From Thermosphaera aggregans DSM 11486 (lineage in GTDB: Archaea; Thermoproteota; Thermoprotei_A; Sulfolobales; Desulfurococcaceae): 64,000 nucleotides of DNA. The position numbers and the translations under genes are program-made. Each line of letters begins with the position of its first letter. The first letter of the stretch is position 1. The notes beneath the pieces were generated by a model. It made no database searches. It saw only the letters and a program-made list of their open reading frames with translations, and was not told where the DNA came from. Below, piece after piece: positions 7,459-37,113 of this stretch. The stretch covers positions 248,001 to 312,000 of the forward strand of contig NC_014160.1 of NCBI RefSeq assembly GCF_000092185.1, given 5' to 3'.

Positions 7459-8523
7459 TTACTTGACCCCGTACATCGTCAATGCTAACACTGCCATCTT
7501 TGTCCATAAACCATTCTCGGCTTGCTCGTAGATAACGGATTTCTTGGGATCGTCGATCACGTCGTCATCCGCTTCATAGCCCCTGAAGATAGGTAGGACG
7601 TGCATCAACACTCCTTTCTTATCCATTAAATCCATCAATTCCCTTGTAACCTTCCAGTTCCTATATTTCTCGTAAATCTTTAACTCCTCGTCCTTGAACT
7701 TGCTATAGCCGACTTGAACCAGGGTGGGTGAGGCCCAGTTTCTAGGGAAAACAGCGTGGGCCCCTCTAACAGCTTCCTGTAAGTTGTCAGTTATCTCTAA
7801 GCTTCCACCATGCTCCTTTGCGAGCTCCTTGGCTTTTTCAACAAGCTTGGGGTCTAGGTCGAACCCCGGCGGCCTAGCGATAACGACGTCTACACCGAAC
7901 CTTGGGAACAGAATCATGTCTTCCTGAACACTGCACCATCCCCTGATCTCCGGGCTGTAAGCCCACATTATCACGTATTTCTTGCCCTGCGGATTTACAA
8001 ATCTCTCTCTGAACGTGTAGATGTCAGCCAAACCCTGTGTAGGGTGAAACATGTCGTCAGCCATATTGATGACTGGAATGTTCGCAGCCTGAGCCATCTC
8101 CCTTATATAGGAGTTTCCAACACCGTAAAGATAGTCTATAGCTTTATCCAGAATCCTTATTCCTAACCCATGTCCATACACATCGTACATTGCAGCCACG
8201 TCTTTAATAGCCTCGCCAGCCTTCTCCTGCTTTCCAAACGCCATTCTCGTTGTTGTAGCATCAATGAATGCTGCGTGACCACCCAGGAAGACCATTCCAG
8301 ATTCGAAAGCCGCCCTAGTTCTTGTCGAGCCAGCGAAGAATAGCATGTAGAATACTTTTCCCGCAAGTATTTTCGGAATATGCTCTACTCCGTAGTAATG
8401 AGCTATCTCCTTGAATTCTTTCGCAAGGTTAAGGGCAATCTCTATTTGCTCATCGGTCCAGTCGAGGGTTGAGATAAGGTCTTTACCGCTTAGCTCTCTT
8501 ACAAGGTGTCGCAACGCAGGCAT
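7459..8523 (-). CDS. YgeW-like carbamoyltransferase (not ornithine-specific), copy 1
   Basis: This is a 354-residue aspartate/ornithine carbamoyltransferase-fold enzyme. The carbamoyl-phosphate site is present: AGSTRTRAAFESG, HPTQGLADIYTFRE and MHVLP in place of HCLP. The ornithine SMG loop is missing; that position reads NWASPTLVQVGY. From memory, segments such as GVGNSYIREM, DMFHPTQGLAD and VIMWAYSP closely resemble E. coli YgeW, a purine-catabolism carbamoyltransferase, rather than ArgF. A second such gene lies at 33838-34911 and carbamate kinase at 31023-31994. The ATG is preceded by GGTGAAG. The substrate is inferred, not shown. Confidence 0.85.
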   Translation of the reverse strand: MPALRHLVRELSGKDLISTLDWTDEQIEIALNLAKEFKEIAHYYGVEHIPKILAGKVFYMLFFAGSTRTRAAFESGMVFLGGHAAFIDATTTRMAFGKQEKAGEAIKDVAAMYDVYGHGLGIRILDKAIDYLYGVGNSYIREMAQAANIPVINMADDMFHPTQGLADIYTFRERFVNPQGKKYVIMWAYSPEIRGWCSVQEDMILFPRFGVDVVIARPPGFDLDPKLVEKAKELAKEHGGSLEITDNLQEAVRGAHAVFPRNWASPTLVQVGYSKFKDEELKIYEKYRNWKVTRELMDLMDKKGVLMHVLPIFRGYEADDDVIDDPKKSVIYEQAENGLWTKMAVLALTMYGVK

Positions 8524-8643: not shown

Positions 8644-10256
8644 TTGAGTAGGAATTTATTAATAGTGGGCATCATTGTGGCTTTAATCGCGATTGGCTCC
8701 ATAGCACTCTTCTACCTTCAACGTCCAGAGACTACTAGAAAAGTTGTAGTATACGCATATAACGACAGGATTACGGGAATAGATCCCAGCGTCGAAGACG
8801 ACACCGGACTAGTGGTCTTGGGCTCAGTATACGAACCCCTCCTCTACTATGACCCTAGAAGCGATGAGTTTAAGCCCGCTTTAGCAATCAATTGGACAAG
8901 TAATGAAGATGGGACTGAATGGGTTTTTAAACTAAGAGAGGGGGTGGTTTTTCATGACGGCACCCCGTTCAACGCTACTGCGGTAAAAATCAGCATTGAA
9001 AGAGCGAGAGATATTTATAGATCAACGGGGCGTGGAATGGGGTATATCTGGGACATGGTTTCAACAATTGAAATATTAGACCCCTACACGGTTAAATTCG
9101 TCCTCGACTATCCAGTGAGGCTAGACCTGATAGCTGCCGCCTCCTATGCAGCATACATATTCTCGCCGTCAGTCATTGAGAGGGCCGGGGCCAGTGATAT
9201 TTTGGACGGTAAGATCGAGGAGTGGTTCAACCAGGGTAATTCAGCAGGCACAGGTCCATACTTTATTGAACATTACAGGCCCGATAAAGAAGTCAGGCTT
9301 AAAAATTCGAGGAATGGTGGGGTTGGAAAATAGTGAACAATCCTAACGCTCCTGATTATGTGATAATTAAAATCCTCACAGAGCCTCAGTCCCAGTATAA
9401 CGGTTTAACCTCGGGTGAGGTAGATATTGTTTCGAGCGTGCCAAGGGATTATGTTGGTCAATTATTAAACCGTGGATACAAGATCTACAACATCACAACC
9501 TATCACAACTACATCCTGTTCTTCAACACTAAAAGGTATCCAACCAACCTTAAAGAGTTCAGGCTCGCAGTGGCTCATGCAATAGATTTGGATGAACTCG
9601 TTCAGTTATGCATGAAGGGTTTTGCGCTCAAGGGTAGTGGAGTGGTTCCACACTACTTCCCGGGTCACGTAAATAATTTAACCCACCGTTACGACTTATC
9701 CTTAGCAAGAGAGTACTTAACCCTCTCCGGTGTCGAAACTCCTATTACCATCGAGTTCCTCTACCAGGTTGACTATGAGGAGAATAGGATTCTAGCCGAG
9801 ACTTTAAAATCAAGGCTTCACCAGCTGGGCATTGAAGTGGTGTTGAACCCTCAGCCATGGAGTGCTTTGAAGGACATTGCAAAGGGTATATGGGAGGATC
9901 CTGAAAACACTCCCCACTTAATAATCGCTGACTGGTGGCCCACTATCCCAAGCCCCTACGACTACTTGTACTCAATGTTTCACAGCGAGTCGAAAGAGTG
10001 GAATTATGCGGGATACGAGAACCCTTATTTCGAAGAATTAATTGATGAGGCATGGGAGCTTGAGGGGGTGGATTATCAGGCCGCTTTGGAAAAATACTAC
10101 CAAGCCCAGAAAATACTGTTCGACGAGGCAGTGGCTATCAACCTGTGGGATGAGGTGAAGCCCTTCATATATAATCCGAAAATAGAAATTCCTAGGGAAG
10201 CCATGAACCCGTTGTATATGTACGTGATATTTTTCCAATATGTGAGGGTGGGCTAG
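8644..10256 (+). CDS. Dipeptide/oligopeptide-binding protein of ABC importer, interrupted by one frameshift
   Basis: This is a family 5 extracellular solute-binding protein that captures peptides for the permease genes following it. An N-terminal hydrophobic segment (LLIVGIIVALIAIGSIALF) acts as signal or membrane anchor. Family features include VVLGSVYEPLLYYD, FKLREGVVFHDGTPFNATAV and, in the second part, LTSGEVDIVSSVPRD and AHAIDL. The reading frame breaks at the five-A run 9301-9305. One more A would give KKFEEWWGWKIVNNPNAPD and join 8644-9333 with 9333-10256 into about 537 residues, the normal family length. As written, the first half ends at TAG 9331-9333. A TTG start with GAGGTGA was chosen. 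Confidence 0.9.
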
Positions 10257-26935: not shown

Positions 26936-28156
26936 TTATTCTTCGAAATGAATAGCTCTGGTTGGACAAACTGAGGTGCACAGACCGCATCCATAACACT
27001 TCGTCCTATCCACCACGGCGAGTCTCTTACCGCCCCCGGATTCTTCAACATGGACTGCGTCGTAATCGCAGACTTGTTGACAGAACCCGCAACCAATGCA
27101 TTTTTTCTCGTCAACTAGTGGGGGCTTCGCCCAAACCCTTCTCGGCTCCGGTTTCAAATACTTCAGTGCTAACCCCTTGACATCTAAAATGCTTGAGTAC
27201 CCGTGTTTCTCCAGCCAGGTTACCGTTTCATTCAAGATTCTCTGGAAGACGCTGAATCCTTCAACCAATGCTGCCGTACATATTTGGACGGCTGAAGCCC
27301 CAGCCATGAAGTACTCTATTACATCAACCCCCCTAGTAATCCCTCCGACTCCTATAATTGGAAGCTTAGTACTCCTCGCCGCCTCCGCGACCACGGCCAG
27401 TGAAATCGGTTTCAGGGCTGGGCCGCTCATCCATCCATATCCATAAGGTCCTCCGACTATCGGCATACCGGTTTCAACATCTATGTTCAGCGCAGGGCCA
27501 ATGGTGTTAGTGGCTACGATACCGTCGACGCGGACTTTTTCAAGATCTTTCACCAGGTCTGGAATATTAGGAGTGAATGGGCTGAGTTTTGCGAAGATGG
27601 GGATTGACACTGATTCTCTAAGGGCCTTGGCAGCCTCTACTACGGGACGGTAGTCTTTTCCAATATAGTGAGTGGAAAATTCGATTGCGTCTGCGCCCGC
27701 CTTCTCTACCTTGGGACCCAGTAATGCTAGCTCTTCAGGCTTGTATCCAATGCTCACGAAGAAGGCTACTCCCCGCTCTCTGCAATAGTTTTTAACGTTT
27801 GGATACTCGCGCTCCAAGTAGTGTTCAGCAGGGATATCACTCCACAGCTCAGCGTTCAGGAAGGCATGTATAAACCTGTGGTTTCCAGCATCTACCGGGG
27901 TTATCCTGACATCTCCTGGTTTCAAGGTTTTCAAATAGTAAAACCTTCCCATCCCCCTGTCTACTACTGCCATGCTCGGCCTTGGGACGATGGCGGGTTT
28001 GACGCTAATAGTCTTTGCAACAACTCCTCCTACCCCGTTGTCAATCAACAGTTTCATTGTTTCAGCGTCACGGGATATTGGGCATGCAGCATTCATGATA
28101 GGGTTTTTCATTTTTATACCAGCTATTTCTATAGATAGATCTACCACACGTTTCAC
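26936..28156 (-). CDS. PreA-like dihydropyrimidine/dihydroorotate dehydrogenase-fold flavoprotein with two Fe-S motifs
   Basis: Residues 1-320 form an FMN TIM barrel of the dihydroorotate/dihydropyrimidine dehydrogenase type (MKNPIMNAACPISRD; GVVAKTISVKP; GVGGITRGVDVIEYFMAGASAVQICTA). The end carries two 4Fe-4S motifs, CIGCGFCQQVC and CYGCGLCTSVCP, as in PreA, the NAD-dependent dihydropyrimidine dehydrogenase subunit. The catalytic-loop position, Cys in DPD and class 1B DHODs, here reads EFSTHYIG with no Cys, so the substrate may differ. No PreT partner gene is visible. GTG at 28156 is taken as the start. The GTG at 28147 after GGGTGA is an alternative. Confidence 0.85.
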   Translation of the reverse strand: MKRVVDLSIEIAGIKMKNPIMNAACPISRDAETMKLLIDNGVGGVVAKTISVKPAIVPRPSMAVVDRGMGRFYYLKTLKPGDVRITPVDAGNHRFIHAFLNAELWSDIPAEHYLEREYPNVKNYCRERGVAFFVSIGYKPEELALLGPKVEKAGADAIEFSTHYIGKDYRPVVEAAKALRESVSIPIFAKLSPFTPNIPDLVKDLEKVRVDGIVATNTIGPALNIDVETGMPIVGGPYGYGWMSGPALKPISLAVVAEAARSTKLPIIGVGGITRGVDVIEYFMAGASAVQICTAALVEGFSVFQRILNETVTWLEKHGYSSILDVKGLALKYLKPEPRRVWAKPPLVDEKKCIGCGFCQQVCDYDAVHVEESGGGKRLAVVDRTKCYGCGLCTSVCPTRAIHFEE

Positions 28157-28633: not shown

Positions 28634-30070
28634 TCAAGGCTTTTCTAGAACATCTAACTGGTATTCTCCTTTATCGAGGAGCTTATCCCATAGTTTCTCA
28701 ACGACCTTGTGAACGTAATCGATTGATTTCTCCTCGTCGATGTTTAAGATAACCCTGTCCTTCATTACTAGCTTTCCATTAACAATAACGGTTTTCACAT
28801 CTCTACTATTCACAGTATTGATTAGGTGTCCATATACTGTTTTAGAGTTAACCGGCGTTGATGGAAGTTCAGGTTTTATCAAAATAATATCAGCTTTCTT
28901 ACCAGCCTCTATACTTCCCAGCTCCTTCCAAACCTTGAACATTCTGGCTACATTTACTGTGGACATTTCGAGTATTTGAAGAGGTGTCATGACCCTGGGA
29001 TCTCTTCTCCAAACTTTATGTATGAGATATGTTGCGCGCATATTTTCGAAGTGGTCGAAGATGTATCCATCATTGCCGATTCCAACGTTAATGCCATGCT
29101 CTATCATCTCCGGTATCTTGGCAACACCTACCGCGTTCAGCATATTGCTCATAGCGTTATGGGCAACATGTGCTCCTGTTTTTCTAATGATCTTGATTTC
29201 ATCATCGGTCGCATTGACTACGTGCACTAGTATGACATCGTCTCTTAGAAATCCGAGTTTCTCCATTCTCTCAATAGGGCGTACGCCATACCGCTCAATA
29301 TTATGGTAGACGTCTACTAAGCCTTCTTCAGCATGAATTGACAGCAAGGCATGGTATTTGTCAGCCAGCTCTCTCGCCCTTACGAATAGATCGTTTGAGA
29401 CCGTGAAGCTGGCGTGTAAATAAATCGCGCCCTTAACCAGTTTTGCCTCATCCATATTATTCTTCCGTATGAAGCGTTCATTCTCCTTAAGGCCCTCTAC
29501 ACCCTCTTGTAAGCTACGTCTCTGTGTTGCCTCAAAGCTTAAGTAACCCCTTAACCCTACCTCGTTAACGGCTTTTTCAATGTAATCGAGAACACCGTTT
29601 ATAGCATTTGGTGCGCTAATATTATCGAAAAAGAAGGTAACCCCGGATTTAACAAACTCTATTGAACCCATCAATGCTGAAGCATATGCTTCTTCATGAG
29701 ACAATAATACGTCGAGGGCCCACCAAATCCTTTGCAGGTTTTGCTGAAAATCTGTAGGGGGGTCTATTTTCATGAACCAAGGGCTACCTGTTAGTAGGAG
29801 ACCGTAGAAGTGGGTGTGAGCGCACATTAACCCGGGTAATACTATATGGTTTCTCGCATCAATCATTTCCTCGGCCACGTATTTCTCCTTTCCATCTCCA
29901 ATACCTACATCTATGATCCTATCTCCGGAAATGGCTACATACCCGTTTTCAACTACTCTTCGGTCCTCGCTCATTGTAACTATTAATCCATTGGATACTA
30001 GAATGTCAACCTTGTCCCTCAAGAAACCCACCTTCGCTTCTAATATTTCAATTCCACGGTATTTAAGCAT
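28634..30070 (-). CDS. SsnA-like amidohydrolase (putative aminohydrolase)
   Basis: This is a metal-dependent amidohydrolase of the cytosine/guanine deaminase-chlorohydrolase group. The HxH motif is LMCAHTHFYG, with further ligands expected in LSIHAEEG, AHNAMSNML and GIGNDGY. The segments LQRIWWALDVLLSHEEAYASALMGS and FFFDNISAPNAINGVLDYI strongly resemble SsnA as I remember it, a protein of the E. coli purine-catabolism locus. It has 478 residues with a short N-terminal extension. Its ATG overlaps the end of the EamA permease gene by eight bases, so the permease probably imports or exports its substrate or product. Confidence 0.85.
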   Translation of the reverse strand: MLKYRGIEILEAKVGFLRDKVDILVSNGLIVTMSEDRRVVENGYVAISGDRIIDVGIGDGKEKYVAEEMIDARNHIVLPGLMCAHTHFYGLLLTGSPWFMKIDPPTDFQQNLQRIWWALDVLLSHEEAYASALMGSIEFVKSGVTFFFDNISAPNAINGVLDYIEKAVNEVGLRGYLSFEATQRRSLQEGVEGLKENERFIRKNNMDEAKLVKGAIYLHASFTVSNDLFVRARELADKYHALLSIHAEEGLVDVYHNIERYGVRPIERMEKLGFLRDDVILVHVVNATDDEIKIIRKTGAHVAHNAMSNMLNAVGVAKIPEMIEHGINVGIGNDGYIFDHFENMRATYLIHKVWRRDPRVMTPLQILEMSTVNVARMFKVWKELGSIEAGKKADIILIKPELPSTPVNSKTVYGHLINTVNSRDVKTVIVNGKLVMKDRVILNIDEEKSIDYVHKVVEKLWDKLLDKGEYQLDVLEKP

Positions 30071-30947
30071 GTCGACTTTTATTGTACTCCTTCAACTCCC
30101 CGATCGTTGTAATGTATATGGCTAAGACTATTAAACCCCCTCCCACGAGCTTATATAGCACAAGGTCCTCAAGCCCCATGACTAATGAGAATATTAATGC
30201 GAAAACAGGCTCTAACAAGAAGATTATCGCAGCAGAGCTAGCGGTAACATATTTCTGCCCTTTAACTTGGAAGTACGTGGCTCCAAGCGAGCACGCCACG
30301 GCAAGGTAAGCTATGTATACAATGGCATTCAATGATAGTTCACCCCCATTCTCCACTATGAAAACATATGGAGCTAGAAATAACGTAGGAGTGAACATTC
30401 CGTAAAGATACTCCAACATACTGGAACCACTGTATTTGCTTACCAATATTATTTGAGCAGCCCATGAGATAGAACCCATGAAAACCAAGATCTCGCCCAA
30501 TCCCCCCGAGTTTTGGGGGCTTGTCAAAATATATAGTCCAGATATCGCTAAAACTAGTGAGACAGCGTGAGTTAAACCGTACTTCCTCGCTAGAAATCCT
30601 GCATATAAGTGCACGTGAACAGTGTTCAACCCGGTTATGAAAGCACTTGTTGAAGGCGTTACGTACTGCGTCCCCAACCCCTGTAGAAGAAGTCCAGTAG
30701 TGTATGCAACCCCAGTGTACAATCCTTTAATGAAGCTTTTAGCATCAATTCCTTGCCTAGCGTGTTTAGCCGCGAGCAGTATTGTTAGGATTAGAATAGA
30801 GATGAGACCCCTGTAGAACGTGTATGAAAACCCGGAGACCTCTTCAACGGATAACTTGATGAATGAGAATGAAGTGCCCCATAGTATCGTGGTTAAAACC
30901 AAAAAGAAAATGCCTTTTATTTTCCCCCTCTTGCTGGAATCGGCCAT
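30063..30947 (-). CDS. EamA/DMT-superfamily permease
   Basis: This 294-residue membrane protein has ten hydrophobic segments in two EamA repeats. The N-terminal repeat starts IFFLVLTTILWGTSFSFIKL, and the second begins near LGEILVFMGSISWAAQIILVSKY. Such proteins carry metabolites, often amino acids or nucleobases, in either direction. Its stop overlaps the SsnA-like start by eight bases, and carbamate kinase is 75 bases upstream, which suggests transport for the same pathway. The substrate cannot be read from sequence. Confidence 0.88.
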   Translation of the reverse strand: MADSSKRGKIKGIFFLVLTTILWGTSFSFIKLSVEEVSGFSYTFYRGLISILILTILLAAKHARQGIDAKSFIKGLYTGVAYTTGLLLQGLGTQYVTPSTSAFITGLNTVHVHLYAGFLARKYGLTHAVSLVLAISGLYILTSPQNSGGLGEILVFMGSISWAAQIILVSKYSGSSMLEYLYGMFTPTLFLAPYVFIVENGGELSLNAIVYIAYLAVACSLGATYFQVKGQKYVTASSAAIIFLLEPVFALIFSLVMGLEDLVLYKLVGGGLIVLAIYITTIGELKEYNKSRHA

Positions 30948-32040: not shown

Positions 32041-32865
32041 TTAAATCATGAAATCGGGAATCCCTTCAGGAGTGTAGGAAATTTTTGGTTTAAGCCCATG
32101 TTTTCTCAAGACCTCTTTCACATGTGGATATAGAATAACGTATTCCTCGTCGATACAGGATGGAAGAGCTGGATGTATTTTCGAAAACTCTTTCTTTAAT
32201 TGGTTGTAGGATTCGGGGGTTGAAAAACTCAGCATTACTGCAGGATAAACTTCAGTACACGGTTTAAGCCCTGATTCTACGAGGTTTTCAAGACCTTTCA
32301 ATTGAAGTTTAAAAAAGAATGGATCAGCCCCTGTCAAAACATAGAATTCCTCGCCTGAGGTTCCCTTGAAACTAATCCTCACCACTAGGTTTGAGAACTC
32401 GGCAAGGCTTTCAGCATAGCTTGGATCGTGCCCTATGAGTAGCCCGTTTGTTTCAAGAATGAATGTGAATGATGTCTCAGAGAAAAGCTGAATAATCTTT
32501 AAAAGATGATTCTTCGATAATGTCGGCTCCCCTCCGCTCAGCCTTACATACTCGTATTTATTTCTAGCCGCGATTGAGTATATTTTTTGGAAAGCAGACT
32601 CAGCGGACTCAAACCAGCCTCCAGTTGATACGTGACTAAATCTCCAGCTCCAGCAGAAACCACACCTCAAATTACATCCTACTACATCCCCTGTGGCTAT
32701 TCCACCGTACCATTTTCCGCCTCTGAACCTGTAGTATTTTCTCTCTTCTCCTGTAATAGTATATCTGCACACGGCGTTCCTAACGGCCTCTGACAAGGTT
32801 AATGGATTATACCCAGGCATTTTAACCAAGATATAATTATTGAAAACCCTTATTGAATCTTTCAA
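32041..32865 (-). CDS. Radical SAM protein paired with a DNA glycosylase
   Basis: The cluster motif is VGCNLRCGFCWSW near residue 65, followed by the typical GGEP (VRLSGGEPTLS) and a core strand FILETNGLLIG. The C-terminal half is variable. It resembles PflA-like activators in the core but no glycyl-radical partner is nearby. The gene overlaps the HhH-GPD glycosylase gene by 29 bases, so the two are translated together. Whether the enzyme acts on nucleic acid or on another substrate is unknown. The start used is a TTG, and a later ATG (residue 16, MPGYNP) is possible. Confidence 0.85.
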   Translation of the reverse strand: MKDSIRVFNNYILVKMPGYNPLTLSEAVRNAVCRYTITGEERKYYRFRGGKWYGGIATGDVVGCNLRCGFCWSWRFSHVSTGGWFESAESAFQKIYSIAARNKYEYVRLSGGEPTLSKNHLLKIIQLFSETSFTFILETNGLLIGHDPSYAESLAEFSNLVVRISFKGTSGEEFYVLTGADPFFFKLQLKGLENLVESGLKPCTEVYPAVMLSFSTPESYNQLKKEFSKIHPALPSCIDEEYVILYPHVKEVLRKHGLKPKISYTPEGIPDFMI

Positions 32866-33739
32866 TTATCGTGTTTACTAATTTTGGAAGAGCTCTGTAT
32901 TCTCCTATACTCTTTAAAAGAATGCTTTCTAATTTACTCAGCTTTCTCTCAAGCCTGGAAGCTGTGTAGTTTAAAGACTGCACAACCCCATTGTACTTAT
33001 CCAGCAATCTCATTGAAAAACCATACTTGCACTTCAAACAGCGTTCACATTTTAAGCAATTCATTACATTTTGTAGACAATATTTCTTCAAGGGTTCACC
33101 TACTCTAAATCTACTGGATAGTAGTTTGGAGAAATGCCTGTCAACGGGCGCGTATAAAGTATTACCATACCCGTGAAGCATTAGAGCGGAGATAGTTTTG
33201 GGACCTATGTTTGCAACTTTTAATAGGTTTAAAATAGTATTGTCTGACATGTATAGAGATAAATCTATTCCTTTGAGAGAATTTCTAAGTCTTTCCAGCG
33301 AATGAGGAATGTATGAGGAATAAACGTTGGAGATGTTAACCCCCCGCAGTAGATCCCGAGACCATTTAATCGTGTTTCGAAGATAATCCGTGTTTCTCGA
33401 GAGAATGATTACTTCTAAAATATCTCTGGCGTCAAGAGGGCTATACATCAGTGTAACTCTTCCCACAATTTCTTCTCCTAATTCATTAGATAGTCGTTTA
33501 AACAATGCTTTCTTGTTCAATCCTAGGAGAGCGGGAATATGAATTCTTTCCGAGGGGGGAACTAATGATGTATTGCAAATGGTGGAAAGAGAATCCTCGG
33601 TGAAAATACATTTCAAACCTTTTGAAACACCATGTTTCTTAGTGAATATGAATCCGTTAGCTGTTTCCTCTATTTCGAAAAATGGGAGAAGATATGAATA
33701 CATAAGTGTTAAACCATAATGAATTCCATTTATCCTCAT
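32837..33739 (-). CDS. HhH-GPD DNA glycosylase/lyase-like protein with Cys cluster
   Basis: Residues 140-215 hold the helix-hairpin-helix and catalytic Asp pattern of the endonuclease III/OGG superfamily (LLKVANIGPKTISALMLHGYG, then APVDRHFSKLL, Asp in VDRH). It is followed by a Cys run C-x6-C-x2-C-x2-C-x2-C (residues about 226-241), which probably holds a 4Fe-4S cluster but with tighter spacing than Nth's C-x6-C-x2-C-x5-C. The N-terminal 100 residues could be an OGG/AlkA-like domain. The base removed is not predictable. The gene is co-translated with the downstream radical SAM gene. Confidence 0.78.
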   Translation of the reverse strand: MRINGIHYGLTLMYSYLLPFFEIEETANGFIFTKKHGVSKGLKCIFTEDSLSTICNTSLVPPSERIHIPALLGLNKKALFKRLSNELGEEIVGRVTLMYSPLDARDILEVIILSRNTDYLRNTIKWSRDLLRGVNISNVYSSYIPHSLERLRNSLKGIDLSLYMSDNTILNLLKVANIGPKTISALMLHGYGNTLYAPVDRHFSKLLSSRFRVGEPLKKYCLQNVMNCLKCERCLKCKYGFSMRLLDKYNGVVQSLNYTASRLERKLSKLESILLKSIGEYRALPKLVNTIIERFNKGFQ

Positions 33740-33837: not shown

Positions 33838-34911
33838 TTATTCTCCAAGAGTCATAGCCATTACGGCTTTTTGAACATGTAGCCTGTTCTCTGCTTCCTC
33901 GAAGTATAGGCTCTTCTCATACGAGTCTAATACTTCATCTGTTACTTCTTGACCTCTGTCAGCAGGTCCGCAGTGCATGTAGTATGGTTTTCCAGCCTTC
34001 TCCAGCCTCTCCCTTGTCACGATCCAGTTCTTGAACTTGTCCTGATAAGCTTTCGCCCCCTCCTTGTCTACGACGCTGTTGTATGGTGGGAAGAAGCCCT
34101 TCGGGCTCCATGCTTTCGGATACACGATGGTTGCGCCTTCAAAGGCCTCGTCCATGTCGTACACTATCTTGAACTCGGAGCCCCAGTGCTTCGCGTACTC
34201 CTTTGCCTTGTTCATTGCCTCATCCATGAGTTCGAATCCTGGTGGGTGTGCAACATATACGTCGGCACCCATCATGGCGAACATTGTGGCAACATCCTGA
34301 GGGACTGCAAGAGGCTTTAAGCCTCCGCTGTACGCGTAGCTTACCACGACCTTCTTTCCTCTCAGGTCTTTAGGCCAGCCGAGAGCATCGAAGGCTGCTT
34401 GAGCGTCGGCTAGAGCCTGGAACGGGTGCCATACATCGTCTTCCATGTTTAAGACAGGGATGTCAGCCCATTTGGCAAACTCCCTAATGATCTTGTGACC
34501 TCTGCCAATGATCCATTTAGCAGCATCGCCGTAGATTCTGATCGCGATTCCATCACCATATCTGCTCAGCACTCTTGCAACATCGCTAATGGCCTCCGTC
34601 TGGTATGGGATCATGTCCTCTGGAAGGGTTGGGGCATATACCTGGTCTGGGCTTATATACGTTGCCTGACCTCCAAGCTGATATATTCCGGTCTGGAAGC
34701 TGTTTCTCGTTCTAAGGCTCTTATTGTAGAAGATGAGGTAGAGCATTTTCCCATCGAGCCACGTTACCTTTCTAATGCCGTTATGATACATTTCTCTAAG
34801 TTCTCGCGCAGCCTTCAATACTTTCAACACGGTATCGATGTCGTGATCATAGTTTGACAGCCAGTCTTGGCCGTGTAGAAGTCCTACGAACCAGGGTTTT
34901 CCTCTACCCAT
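33838..34911 (-). CDS. YgeW-like carbamoyltransferase, copy 2
   Basis: This is a carbamoyltransferase-fold protein of about 357 residues. Carbamoyl phosphate site: NKSLRTRNSFQTG (S-x-R-T-R), VWHPFQALADAQA and MHCGPADRGQE, where the usual HCLP Leu is Gly. The second-substrate loop lacks SMG. Instead VVVSYAYSGGLKPLAVPQDVA, VYVAHPPGFEL and IVYPKAWSPKG resemble E. coli YgeW closely from memory, including the VPQ loop of knotted carbamoyltransferases. The ATG at 34911 follows AGGTG at 34921-34925. Carbamate kinase is about 1.8 kb downstream. Copy 1 is at 7459. Confidence 0.87.
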   Translation of the reverse strand: MGRGKPWFVGLLHGQDWLSNYDHDIDTVLKVLKAARELREMYHNGIRKVTWLDGKMLYLIFYNKSLRTRNSFQTGIYQLGGQATYISPDQVYAPTLPEDMIPYQTEAISDVARVLSRYGDGIAIRIYGDAAKWIIGRGHKIIREFAKWADIPVLNMEDDVWHPFQALADAQAAFDALGWPKDLRGKKVVVSYAYSGGLKPLAVPQDVATMFAMMGADVYVAHPPGFELMDEAMNKAKEYAKHWGSEFKIVYDMDEAFEGATIVYPKAWSPKGFFPPYNSVVDKEGAKAYQDKFKNWIVTRERLEKAGKPYYMHCGPADRGQEVTDEVLDSYEKSLYFEEAENRLHVQKAVMAMTLGE

Positions 34912-35024
34912 GATTTGATCCACCTATTTGCTCCGTAAAATATTATCCACCTCTATCGTATATAAATGTTGAATCTTAATTATACCACAGTCTATACTTT
35001 ACAAATACATTTCTACATATTCCA

Positions 35025-36168: not shown

Positions 36169-37113
36169 ATGGTGTCGAGTCTGAAAGGCAGAGACTTTCT
36201 CACGTTAACCGAGTATACTAGAGAGGAACTATGGTTTATGCTTGAAACAGCCGCGCAGCTCAAGCAGAGGTACTTGTCTGGTGAGAGGATAATACCCGTT
36301 CTTCAAGGCAGGCACCTTGCAATGATCTTTGAGAAACCAAGCACTAGGACAAGGCTCAGTTTTGAAACCGCTATGAAGGAGTTAGGCGGGGACGCGATTT
36401 ATTTGAGCTCTAGCGAGTTGCAACTAGCCAGGGGCGAGACCATTGAGGATACTGCGAGAGTATTGTCAAGATATGTTGACGGGATAATGGCGCGTGTATA
36501 CGAGCACTACAAGATTGAAAAACTGGCTGAGTATGCTAGTGTGCCGGTTATAAACGGTTTAAGCGATCTACACCACCCCGCTCAAGCACTCAGTGATGTT
36601 TTAACGATTATTGAAAAGAAGGGTAAAGATATTTCAAAGCTGAAGATAGTGTTCGTTGGGGATGGGGGTGACAACGTCCTCCACAGCTTAATGCTTGCGG
36701 TAGGAATATTAGGGGGTAGAGTCATCATTGCCTCTCCCAAAGGATATGAGCCGCATCCGAGCGTTGTTAAATTGTTCAATGAACACGCGGTCCCGAATGG
36801 TGGTTCTTACGAAGTTTTAAGGGATCCATACCAGGCTGTTGAGAACGCGGACGTAGTGTACACGGATGTATGGGTTAGTATGGGGCAGGATAAGGAAAGA
36901 GAGAGAAGGATTAAAGACTTGGAGCCTTACAGGGTAACGGTGGAATTGATGAGTAAAGCTAAGAGTGATGCAATATTCATGCACTGTTTACCCGCCCACA
37001 GAGGCGAGGAAGTTGTTAACGAGGTAATCGATGGGAAATGGAGCGTTGTATGGGATCAAGCTGAAAATAGGAAGCACGCCCAAAAAGCAATTCTAGCTCT
37101 CCTCATACCATGA
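36169..37113 (+). CDS. argF: Ornithine carbamoyltransferase
   Basis: This is the canonical enzyme, making citrulline from ornithine and carbamoyl phosphate (or the reverse). All key motifs are present: KPSTRTRLSFE (residues 57-67), LHHPAQALSDVLT, the ornithine loop VWVSMGQDKERERR and MHCLPAHRGEEV. At 314 residues it is standard and clearly distinct from the two YgeW-like copies. ATG with GGTGAT at 36158-36163. It diverges from the DUF711 gene. It could serve arginine synthesis or, with carbamate kinase, catabolism. Confidence 0.96.
   Translation: MVSSLKGRDFLTLTEYTREELWFMLETAAQLKQRYLSGERIIPVLQGRHLAMIFEKPSTRTRLSFETAMKELGGDAIYLSSSELQLARGETIEDTARVLSRYVDGIMARVYEHYKIEKLAEYASVPVINGLSDLHHPAQALSDVLTIIEKKGKDISKLKIVFVGDGGDNVLHSLMLAVGILGGRVIIASPKGYEPHPSVVKLFNEHAVPNGGSYEVLRDPYQAVENADVVYTDVWVSMGQDKERERRIKDLEPYRVTVELMSKAKSDAIFMHCLPAHRGEEVVNEVIDGKWSVVWDQAENRKHAQKAILALLIP

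Follow-up and report, generated by a model that had tools for sequence, protein, structure and literature searches.

The locus examined here raises the question of which molecule is served by a carbamoyltransferase whose HCLP motif carries a glycine in place of leucine, and whether that glycine has any part in the choice. The gene, which we call ctA, occupies 33838-34923 (minus strand) of the window, i.e. the whole stretch of 64,000 nucleotides analysed, which covers positions 248001-312000 of the single-contig, 1,316,595 bp genome of Thermosphaera aggregans. It is a full-length open reading frame of 361 residues with the Pfam domains OTCace_N and OTCace; the original prediction correctly identified a gene here, but ended it at 34911, an ATG at codon 5, while the GTG start lies at 34923. 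The sequence features on which that prediction was built are all found. The HCLP-loop position reads MHCGPADRGQE (residues 316-326), with HCGP itself, located by motif alignment, at residues 317-320 (33964-33975, minus strand), the carbamoyl-phosphate loop is SLRTR (residues 69-73; 34705-34719, minus strand), and the VPQ loop of the knotted group appears as the proline-rich KPLAVPQ (residues 203-209; 34297-34317, minus strand; PMC4581275), together with a 120's segment that is extended relative to ornithine carbamoyltransferase (OTC). A search of the ctA sequence for the ornithine loop DxxxSMG returned nothing. SLRT, HPFQ (residues 166-169; 34417-34428, minus strand), HCGP as a variant of HxLP and the two-domain fold place ctA in the transcarbamylase superfamily, and the proline-rich and extended 120's loops agree with the sequence definition of the knotted transcarbamylases. 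The AlphaFold2 model has a mean pLDDT of 94.3, and its closest solved folds by Foldseek are knotted N-acetylornithine carbamoyltransferases (AOTC; TM 0.92). ctA is thus a non-ornithine carbamoyltransferase of the knotted type that falls on the same side of the family as YgeW, and its substrate is probably unusual.

The glycine is neither a sequence error nor a chance event, as the relatives, aligned to see whether the residue is conserved, have HCGP in 42 of the 42 closest loci, from Desulfurococcales, Hadarchaea and their relatives, and HCLP in all 68 more distant ones, with some of these loci representing the same species twice. The HCGP proteins group together with support in the family tree. 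It had been suggested that the HCLP loop contacts carbamoyl phosphate and the second substrate, but this does not hold for the side chains, which make no direct substrate interaction, binding being provided by main-chain oxygens; the leucine is a Ramachandran outlier preceding a cis-proline (PMC4581275), a position where glycine is sterically natural. Barba et al. tabulate HP[LG]P for aspartate carbamoyltransferases (ATCases), so that HPGP is known there (PMC4016543, Table 1). The further idea, that the glycine reshapes the pocket and thereby gives a new acceptor specificity, draws on its fixation within one clade and strikes us as very improbable given the main-chain binding, the HPGP of ATCases, the HCLP-bearing ctA relatives with the same gene company, and an independent origin of HCGP in ctB of Thorarchaeota (L073, L083, L085; ctB is described below). 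We rejected the view that the glycine brings about a new acceptor because HxLP side chains do not touch the substrate and because of the unchanged gene company of the HCLP relatives. By itself it implies no new acceptor; it is a lineage marker and weak acceptor evidence, real yet probably unimportant. An unusual acceptor is supported all the same, not by the glycine but by the lost ornithine loop, the residue pair Glu161/Lys270, the separate clade and the gene company.

ctA stays under every curated NCBIfam cut-off, scoring 232 bits against 288 for AOTC, 197.5 against 306 for OTC, and 148.3 against 500 and 149.9 against 453 for the two YgeW models. In a tree of the family, assembled without SOTC, it belongs to a clade of 26 rows with a support of 99 that holds archaea and bacteria, with the E. 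coli and E. faecalis YgeW and a third, HALP-type class nearby at weak support (86). ctA is an old clade of its own, and is not YgeW, AOTC or OTC. The label YgeW-like hence describes the correct side of the family, but is loose in view of these scores. Both proteins have the knotted-type motifs KP(L)(A/S)VPQ, PKxW and HCxPAD, both are accompanied by carbamate kinase, SsnA, HyuA-like, xanthine dehydrogenase (XDH) and DHO_dh/YgfK-type reductase partners, and by analogy ctA may share the phosphorolysis of a ureido group of 2,3-diureidopropionate. However, ctA is shorter (361 versus 396 residues, YgeW being marked by additional N- and C-terminal helices), its 80's loop is extended whereas that of YgeW is short with a Gln, it lacks the insert that follows HCLPAD in YgeW, its 240's segment is reduced (29 versus 39), it has Glu161 where YgeW has Gln and SLRTR rather than STRTR, and it is nearly always accompanied by ctB, while YgeY is absent in these archaea.

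An anabolic arginine-pathway role, as ornithine, N-acetylornithine or N-succinylornithine carbamoyltransferase, would be suggested by AOTC being both the best curated match and the nearest solved fold (Xanthomonas enzyme, about 33% identity), and by the extended 80's loop and the Glu/Lys pair that ctA shares with it. We nevertheless regard this as extremely unlikely. Apart from the missed cut-off, Lys302 and Glu92 of AOTC are replaced by Glu326 and Thr109, a Lys stands at the Asp position of OTC, and the recurrent neighbours of ctA include no arginine genes. Moreover, a genuine OTC, which is context outside the pathway discussed below, is encoded only 1.2 kb away (36169-37113, plus strand; 431 bits against the cut-off of 306). 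Identification of ctA as AOTC or OTC was rejected on the missed cut-offs and this adjacent gene. Between ctA and the OTC gene lies a DUF711-family protein (PF05167; 35025-36137, minus strand).

The window encodes a second knotted-type carbamoyltransferase, ctB (7459-8523, minus strand; 354 residues, with HVLP and RGWCSVQ), a paralogue nearly always co-inherited with ctA. Its clade (22 rows, support 99) likewise contains archaea and bacteria. In AOTC the second substrate is bound by E144 and K252 (PMC4581275). In the alignment these positions are Glu and Lys in every ctA (Glu161, 34441-34443, and Lys270, 34114-34116, both minus strand, in T. aggregans). All ctB proteins have Ala and Arg there, YgeW has Gln and Lys, and OTC has Leu and Asp, while SxRTR, HPxQ and HxxP are kept in both ctA and ctB. 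As the residues at the second-substrate positions differ by class, ctA and ctB look like two enzymes with distinct second substrates. We note that the peptide-binding gene of the ABC operon adjoining ctB is split into two reading frames (8644-9333 and 9333-10256, plus strand); in two relatives (L049, L052) it is one frame of about 540 residues, pointing to a frameshift or sequencing error in T. aggregans.

Several genes near ctA are relevant to its role. On the minus strand lie a PydA/PreA/UacX-like reductase with DHO_dh and 4Fe-4S parts (26936-28156), an SsnA-like aminohydrolase (28634-30070), an EamA/DMT-type transporter (30063-30947), and arcC, the only carbamate kinase gene of the genome (31023-32033). 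Between arcC and ctA, a radical SAM gene overlaps one for a 300-residue protein that has no Pfam or NCBIfam match (32041-33739, minus strand); this gene pair is kept in the same place in two relatives (L048 and L050). Orthologues of XDH, the HyuA-like protein, both PALPs and the importer are found at other T. aggregans loci, with about 50-85% identity to proteins of two relatives (G306, G381). Family-level homologues of XDH, the UacX/YgfK-type reductase, SsnA, HyuA, the ureido-cleaving enzymes and the PLP lyase are all present in this genome. Three observations count against the pathway proposed below. ctB, XDH, HyuA and PALP are far from ctA in T. aggregans; there is only one XDH large subunit, which bears on the entry substrate; and the best matches of the HyuA-like protein and of PALP are dihydroorotase/allantoinase and threonine synthase models, PALP (527938-529206 in genome coordinates) being threonine-synthase-like, and one of its homologues being about 21% identical to YgeX. 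Neither an ATCase over the curated cut-off nor a CPS-II large subunit was found in T. aggregans and its congeners, which keep OTC and carbamate kinase, and classical carbamoyl-phosphate synthetase (CPS) is missing in 29 of the 31 genomes tested. arcC may be anabolic in archaea without CPS. It is also kept in ctA-less relatives, including three of the home family (G002, G349, G361), and given this and the missing CPS it is not pathway-specific evidence; its adjacency as proof of ATP production was rejected, arcC being universal in these genomes.

The set is compact in a relative of the same family. A 29.6 kb contig (contig 37 of G381) carries SsnA, an adenine deaminase (493.8 bits against a cut-off of 472.5), a second amidohydrolase, an ABC nucleoside importer with a PnrA-like binding protein, ctB, a PreA-like protein, a threonine-synthase-like PALP and ctA, followed by a CysK-like PALP, three xanthine dehydrogenase subunits and a hydantoinase-like (HyuA-like) amidohydrolase. 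The Hadarchaea loci include XDH, and there an F420/luciferase-type reductase adjoins SsnA and replaces PreA; in Hadarchaea and Bipolaricaulota, ctA and ctB stand with XDH, SsnA, HyuA, PALP or the luciferase-type reductase. In Bipolaricaulota, Caldisericota, Chloroflexota, Eisenbacteria, Cloacimonadota and Asgard archaea the two genes are often in tandem with carbamate kinase, and XDH, SsnA, HyuA, YgfK or PALP are often alongside. The HALP-type carbamoyltransferase, weakly sister to YgeW, adjoins a close YgeY at three loci (L111:8693-9676, L121:7010-7993, L128:9348-10334), and its hosts among Cloacimonadota and Bipolaricaulota also have ctA and ctB.

Co-inheritance was examined in 398 genomes from the phylum, of which 36 contain ctA, called at at least 50% identity. 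ctB is present in 34 of these and in none of the 362 others (Fisher 3e-47, uncorrected for phylogeny), in a tally assigned by eye from second-best matches in which doubtful proteins of two groups (f15, f42) belong to another class. SsnA shows the same distribution (34/36 and 0/362, likewise uncorrected for phylogeny), and PALP occurs in 35 of the 36 and in two other genomes (Fisher about 1e-46, also uncorrected). Within the home family, the three ctA-less genomes named above jointly lack ctA, ctB, SsnA, PreA and PALP.

Similar enzymes have been characterized in E. coli and C. difficile by Li et al. 2025, where uric acid is converted to yanthine by XdhD, dearomatised reductively by YgfK or UacX (a luciferase-family alternative being noted for Chloroflexota), and opened by SsnA and HyuA to 2,3-diureidopropionate; one ureido group is removed by YgeW through phosphorolysis or by UacY, the other is hydrolysed by YgeY, and the resulting 2,3-diaminopropionate is split by YgeX, the E. 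coli set being XdhD, YgfK/UacX, SsnA, HyuA, YgeW, YgeY and YgeX (PMC12507026). The choice of ureido group by YgeW is still a matter of dispute (PMC12990295). The archaeal set contains the same kinds of enzyme for the same order of chemistry, including the UacX-type and F420/luciferase-type alternatives to YgfK, but differs in its hosts, in having two carbamoyltransferase classes, in the absence of a YgeY orthologue and in a PLP enzyme that resembles threonine synthase rather than YgeX. On balance, we favour ctA as a catabolic carbamoyltransferase of an archaeal variant of reductive purine (uric acid) degradation, likely acting with ctB in a double phosphorolysis. Archaeal homologues exist for each step save that of YgeY; there is one carbamoyltransferase more, and another kind of PLP enzyme takes the position of YgeX. 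Double phosphorolysis by the pair would be the simplest reading. The sequences show which genes are present, that they cluster and are inherited together, and that there are two classes with different second-substrate residues; from this we infer every reaction, its direction and the assignment of one ureido group to each enzyme. Purine nucleosides or bases would be imported and deaminated, whereupon a molybdenum enzyme of the xanthine dehydrogenase type may adjust the oxidation of the ring. The PydA/UacX-like flavoprotein, or in Hadarchaea the F420-type oxidoreductase, would then reduce the ring, and SsnA and the hydantoinase-like hydrolase would cleave both rings, giving 2,3-diureidopropionate. 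In place of YgeW and YgeY, ctA and ctB would phosphorolyse one ureido group each, yielding two carbamoyl phosphates that could be used by carbamate kinase for ATP or handed to OTC, and the 2,3-diaminopropionate would be split by the threonine-synthase-like PLP enzyme standing in for YgeX.

Within the same pathway the ureido groups need not be divided between the two proteins. ctA and ctB could form one hetero-oligomer, or one of them could use a ureido intermediate that arises earlier or is otherwise different, the second group being left to a hydrolase, of the M20 family or another. Their nature as tandem paralogues is compatible with this, as are the YgeY-like M20 genes that a few bacteria (L075, L098, L111, L121, L128, L133) carry next to ctA/ctB, and which also mean that replacement of YgeY is not strict. 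In these archaea no close YgeY homologue was found, the best T. aggregans match being an M20 protein of 30% identity that could fill the role; however, it also occurs in ctA-less relatives and was rejected as YgeY for this reason, and two genomes with both ctA and ctB (G229, G368) have no YgeY match at E 1e-15. Since, in addition, both classes retain all carbamoyl-phosphate motifs and carry class-specific second-substrate residues, we judge such an arrangement unlikely.

A quite different use of the pair, in reductive pyrimidine breakdown, would convert N-carbamoyl-beta-alanine to beta-alanine and carbamoyl phosphate. PreA-like reductases and hydantoinase-like hydrolases are pyrimidine enzymes too, a catabolic beta-alanine carbamoyltransferase has been suggested, though not proven (PMC4581275), and a cytidine-deaminase-like reading frame was noticed by eye near PALP in T. 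aggregans. The co-occurring SsnA, XDH, adenine deaminase and PLP lyase-like protein nonetheless make this assignment quite improbable, as do the pyrimidine-type clusters of other archaea, in which a HyuA-type hydrolase accompanies a single carbamoyltransferase of another class (groups f15 and f42; L053:1556-2593, minus strand, L149:4481-5596, L150:9263-10390, L151:10003-11040). That class has HCLP, KPVAVPQ and a short 80's loop, and the f15 loci also encode PreA and PreT-like proteins, i.e. the set for reductive pyrimidine breakdown, which leads to a product with a single ureido group. The class is a candidate for the enzyme that phosphorolyses N-carbamoyl-beta-alanine, and one carbamoyltransferase in such clusters supports counting enzymes by ureido groups.

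Returning to double phosphorolysis in purine degradation, a precedent is the ureidoglycine carbamoyltransferase of Rubrobacter, another case of purine catabolism in which a carbamoyltransferase takes the place of a hydrolase and supplies carbamate kinase; that enzyme, however, is an unknotted relative of ATCase (pseudo-ATCase) and works on allantoate in the oxidative pathway (PMC4016543). The reductive urate pathway has been described as restricted to selected anaerobic bacteria (PMC12990295), and our literature search, of incomplete coverage, yielded nothing on it in Desulfurococcales or on a version with two carbamoyltransferases. Carbamoyl phosphate survives for less than 2 s near 95-100 °C (PMC6022934), hence its transfer to carbamate kinase or OTC would probably need channelling, although this is speculation.

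In conclusion, the likely misannotation of ctA-type genes as ornithine or N-acetylornithine carbamoyltransferase is corrected here, and a function is proposed for ctB, a carbamoyltransferase class so far without one assigned. If the proposal is true, the two enzymes, one per ureido group, would offer a means of settling the target of YgeW. Purines are suggested to be a nutrient for hyperthermophilic archaea, most of which have no classical carbamoyl-phosphate synthetase. More tentatively, and with some doubt, hyperthermophilic and other archaea may ferment purines with ctA and ctB each taking one ureido group, so that both carbamoyl phosphates of a purine ring are conserved and neither is wasted through hydrolysis. 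Judging by its gene company, the ctA/ctB pair would let heat-loving archaea degrade purines anaerobically with energy recovery.
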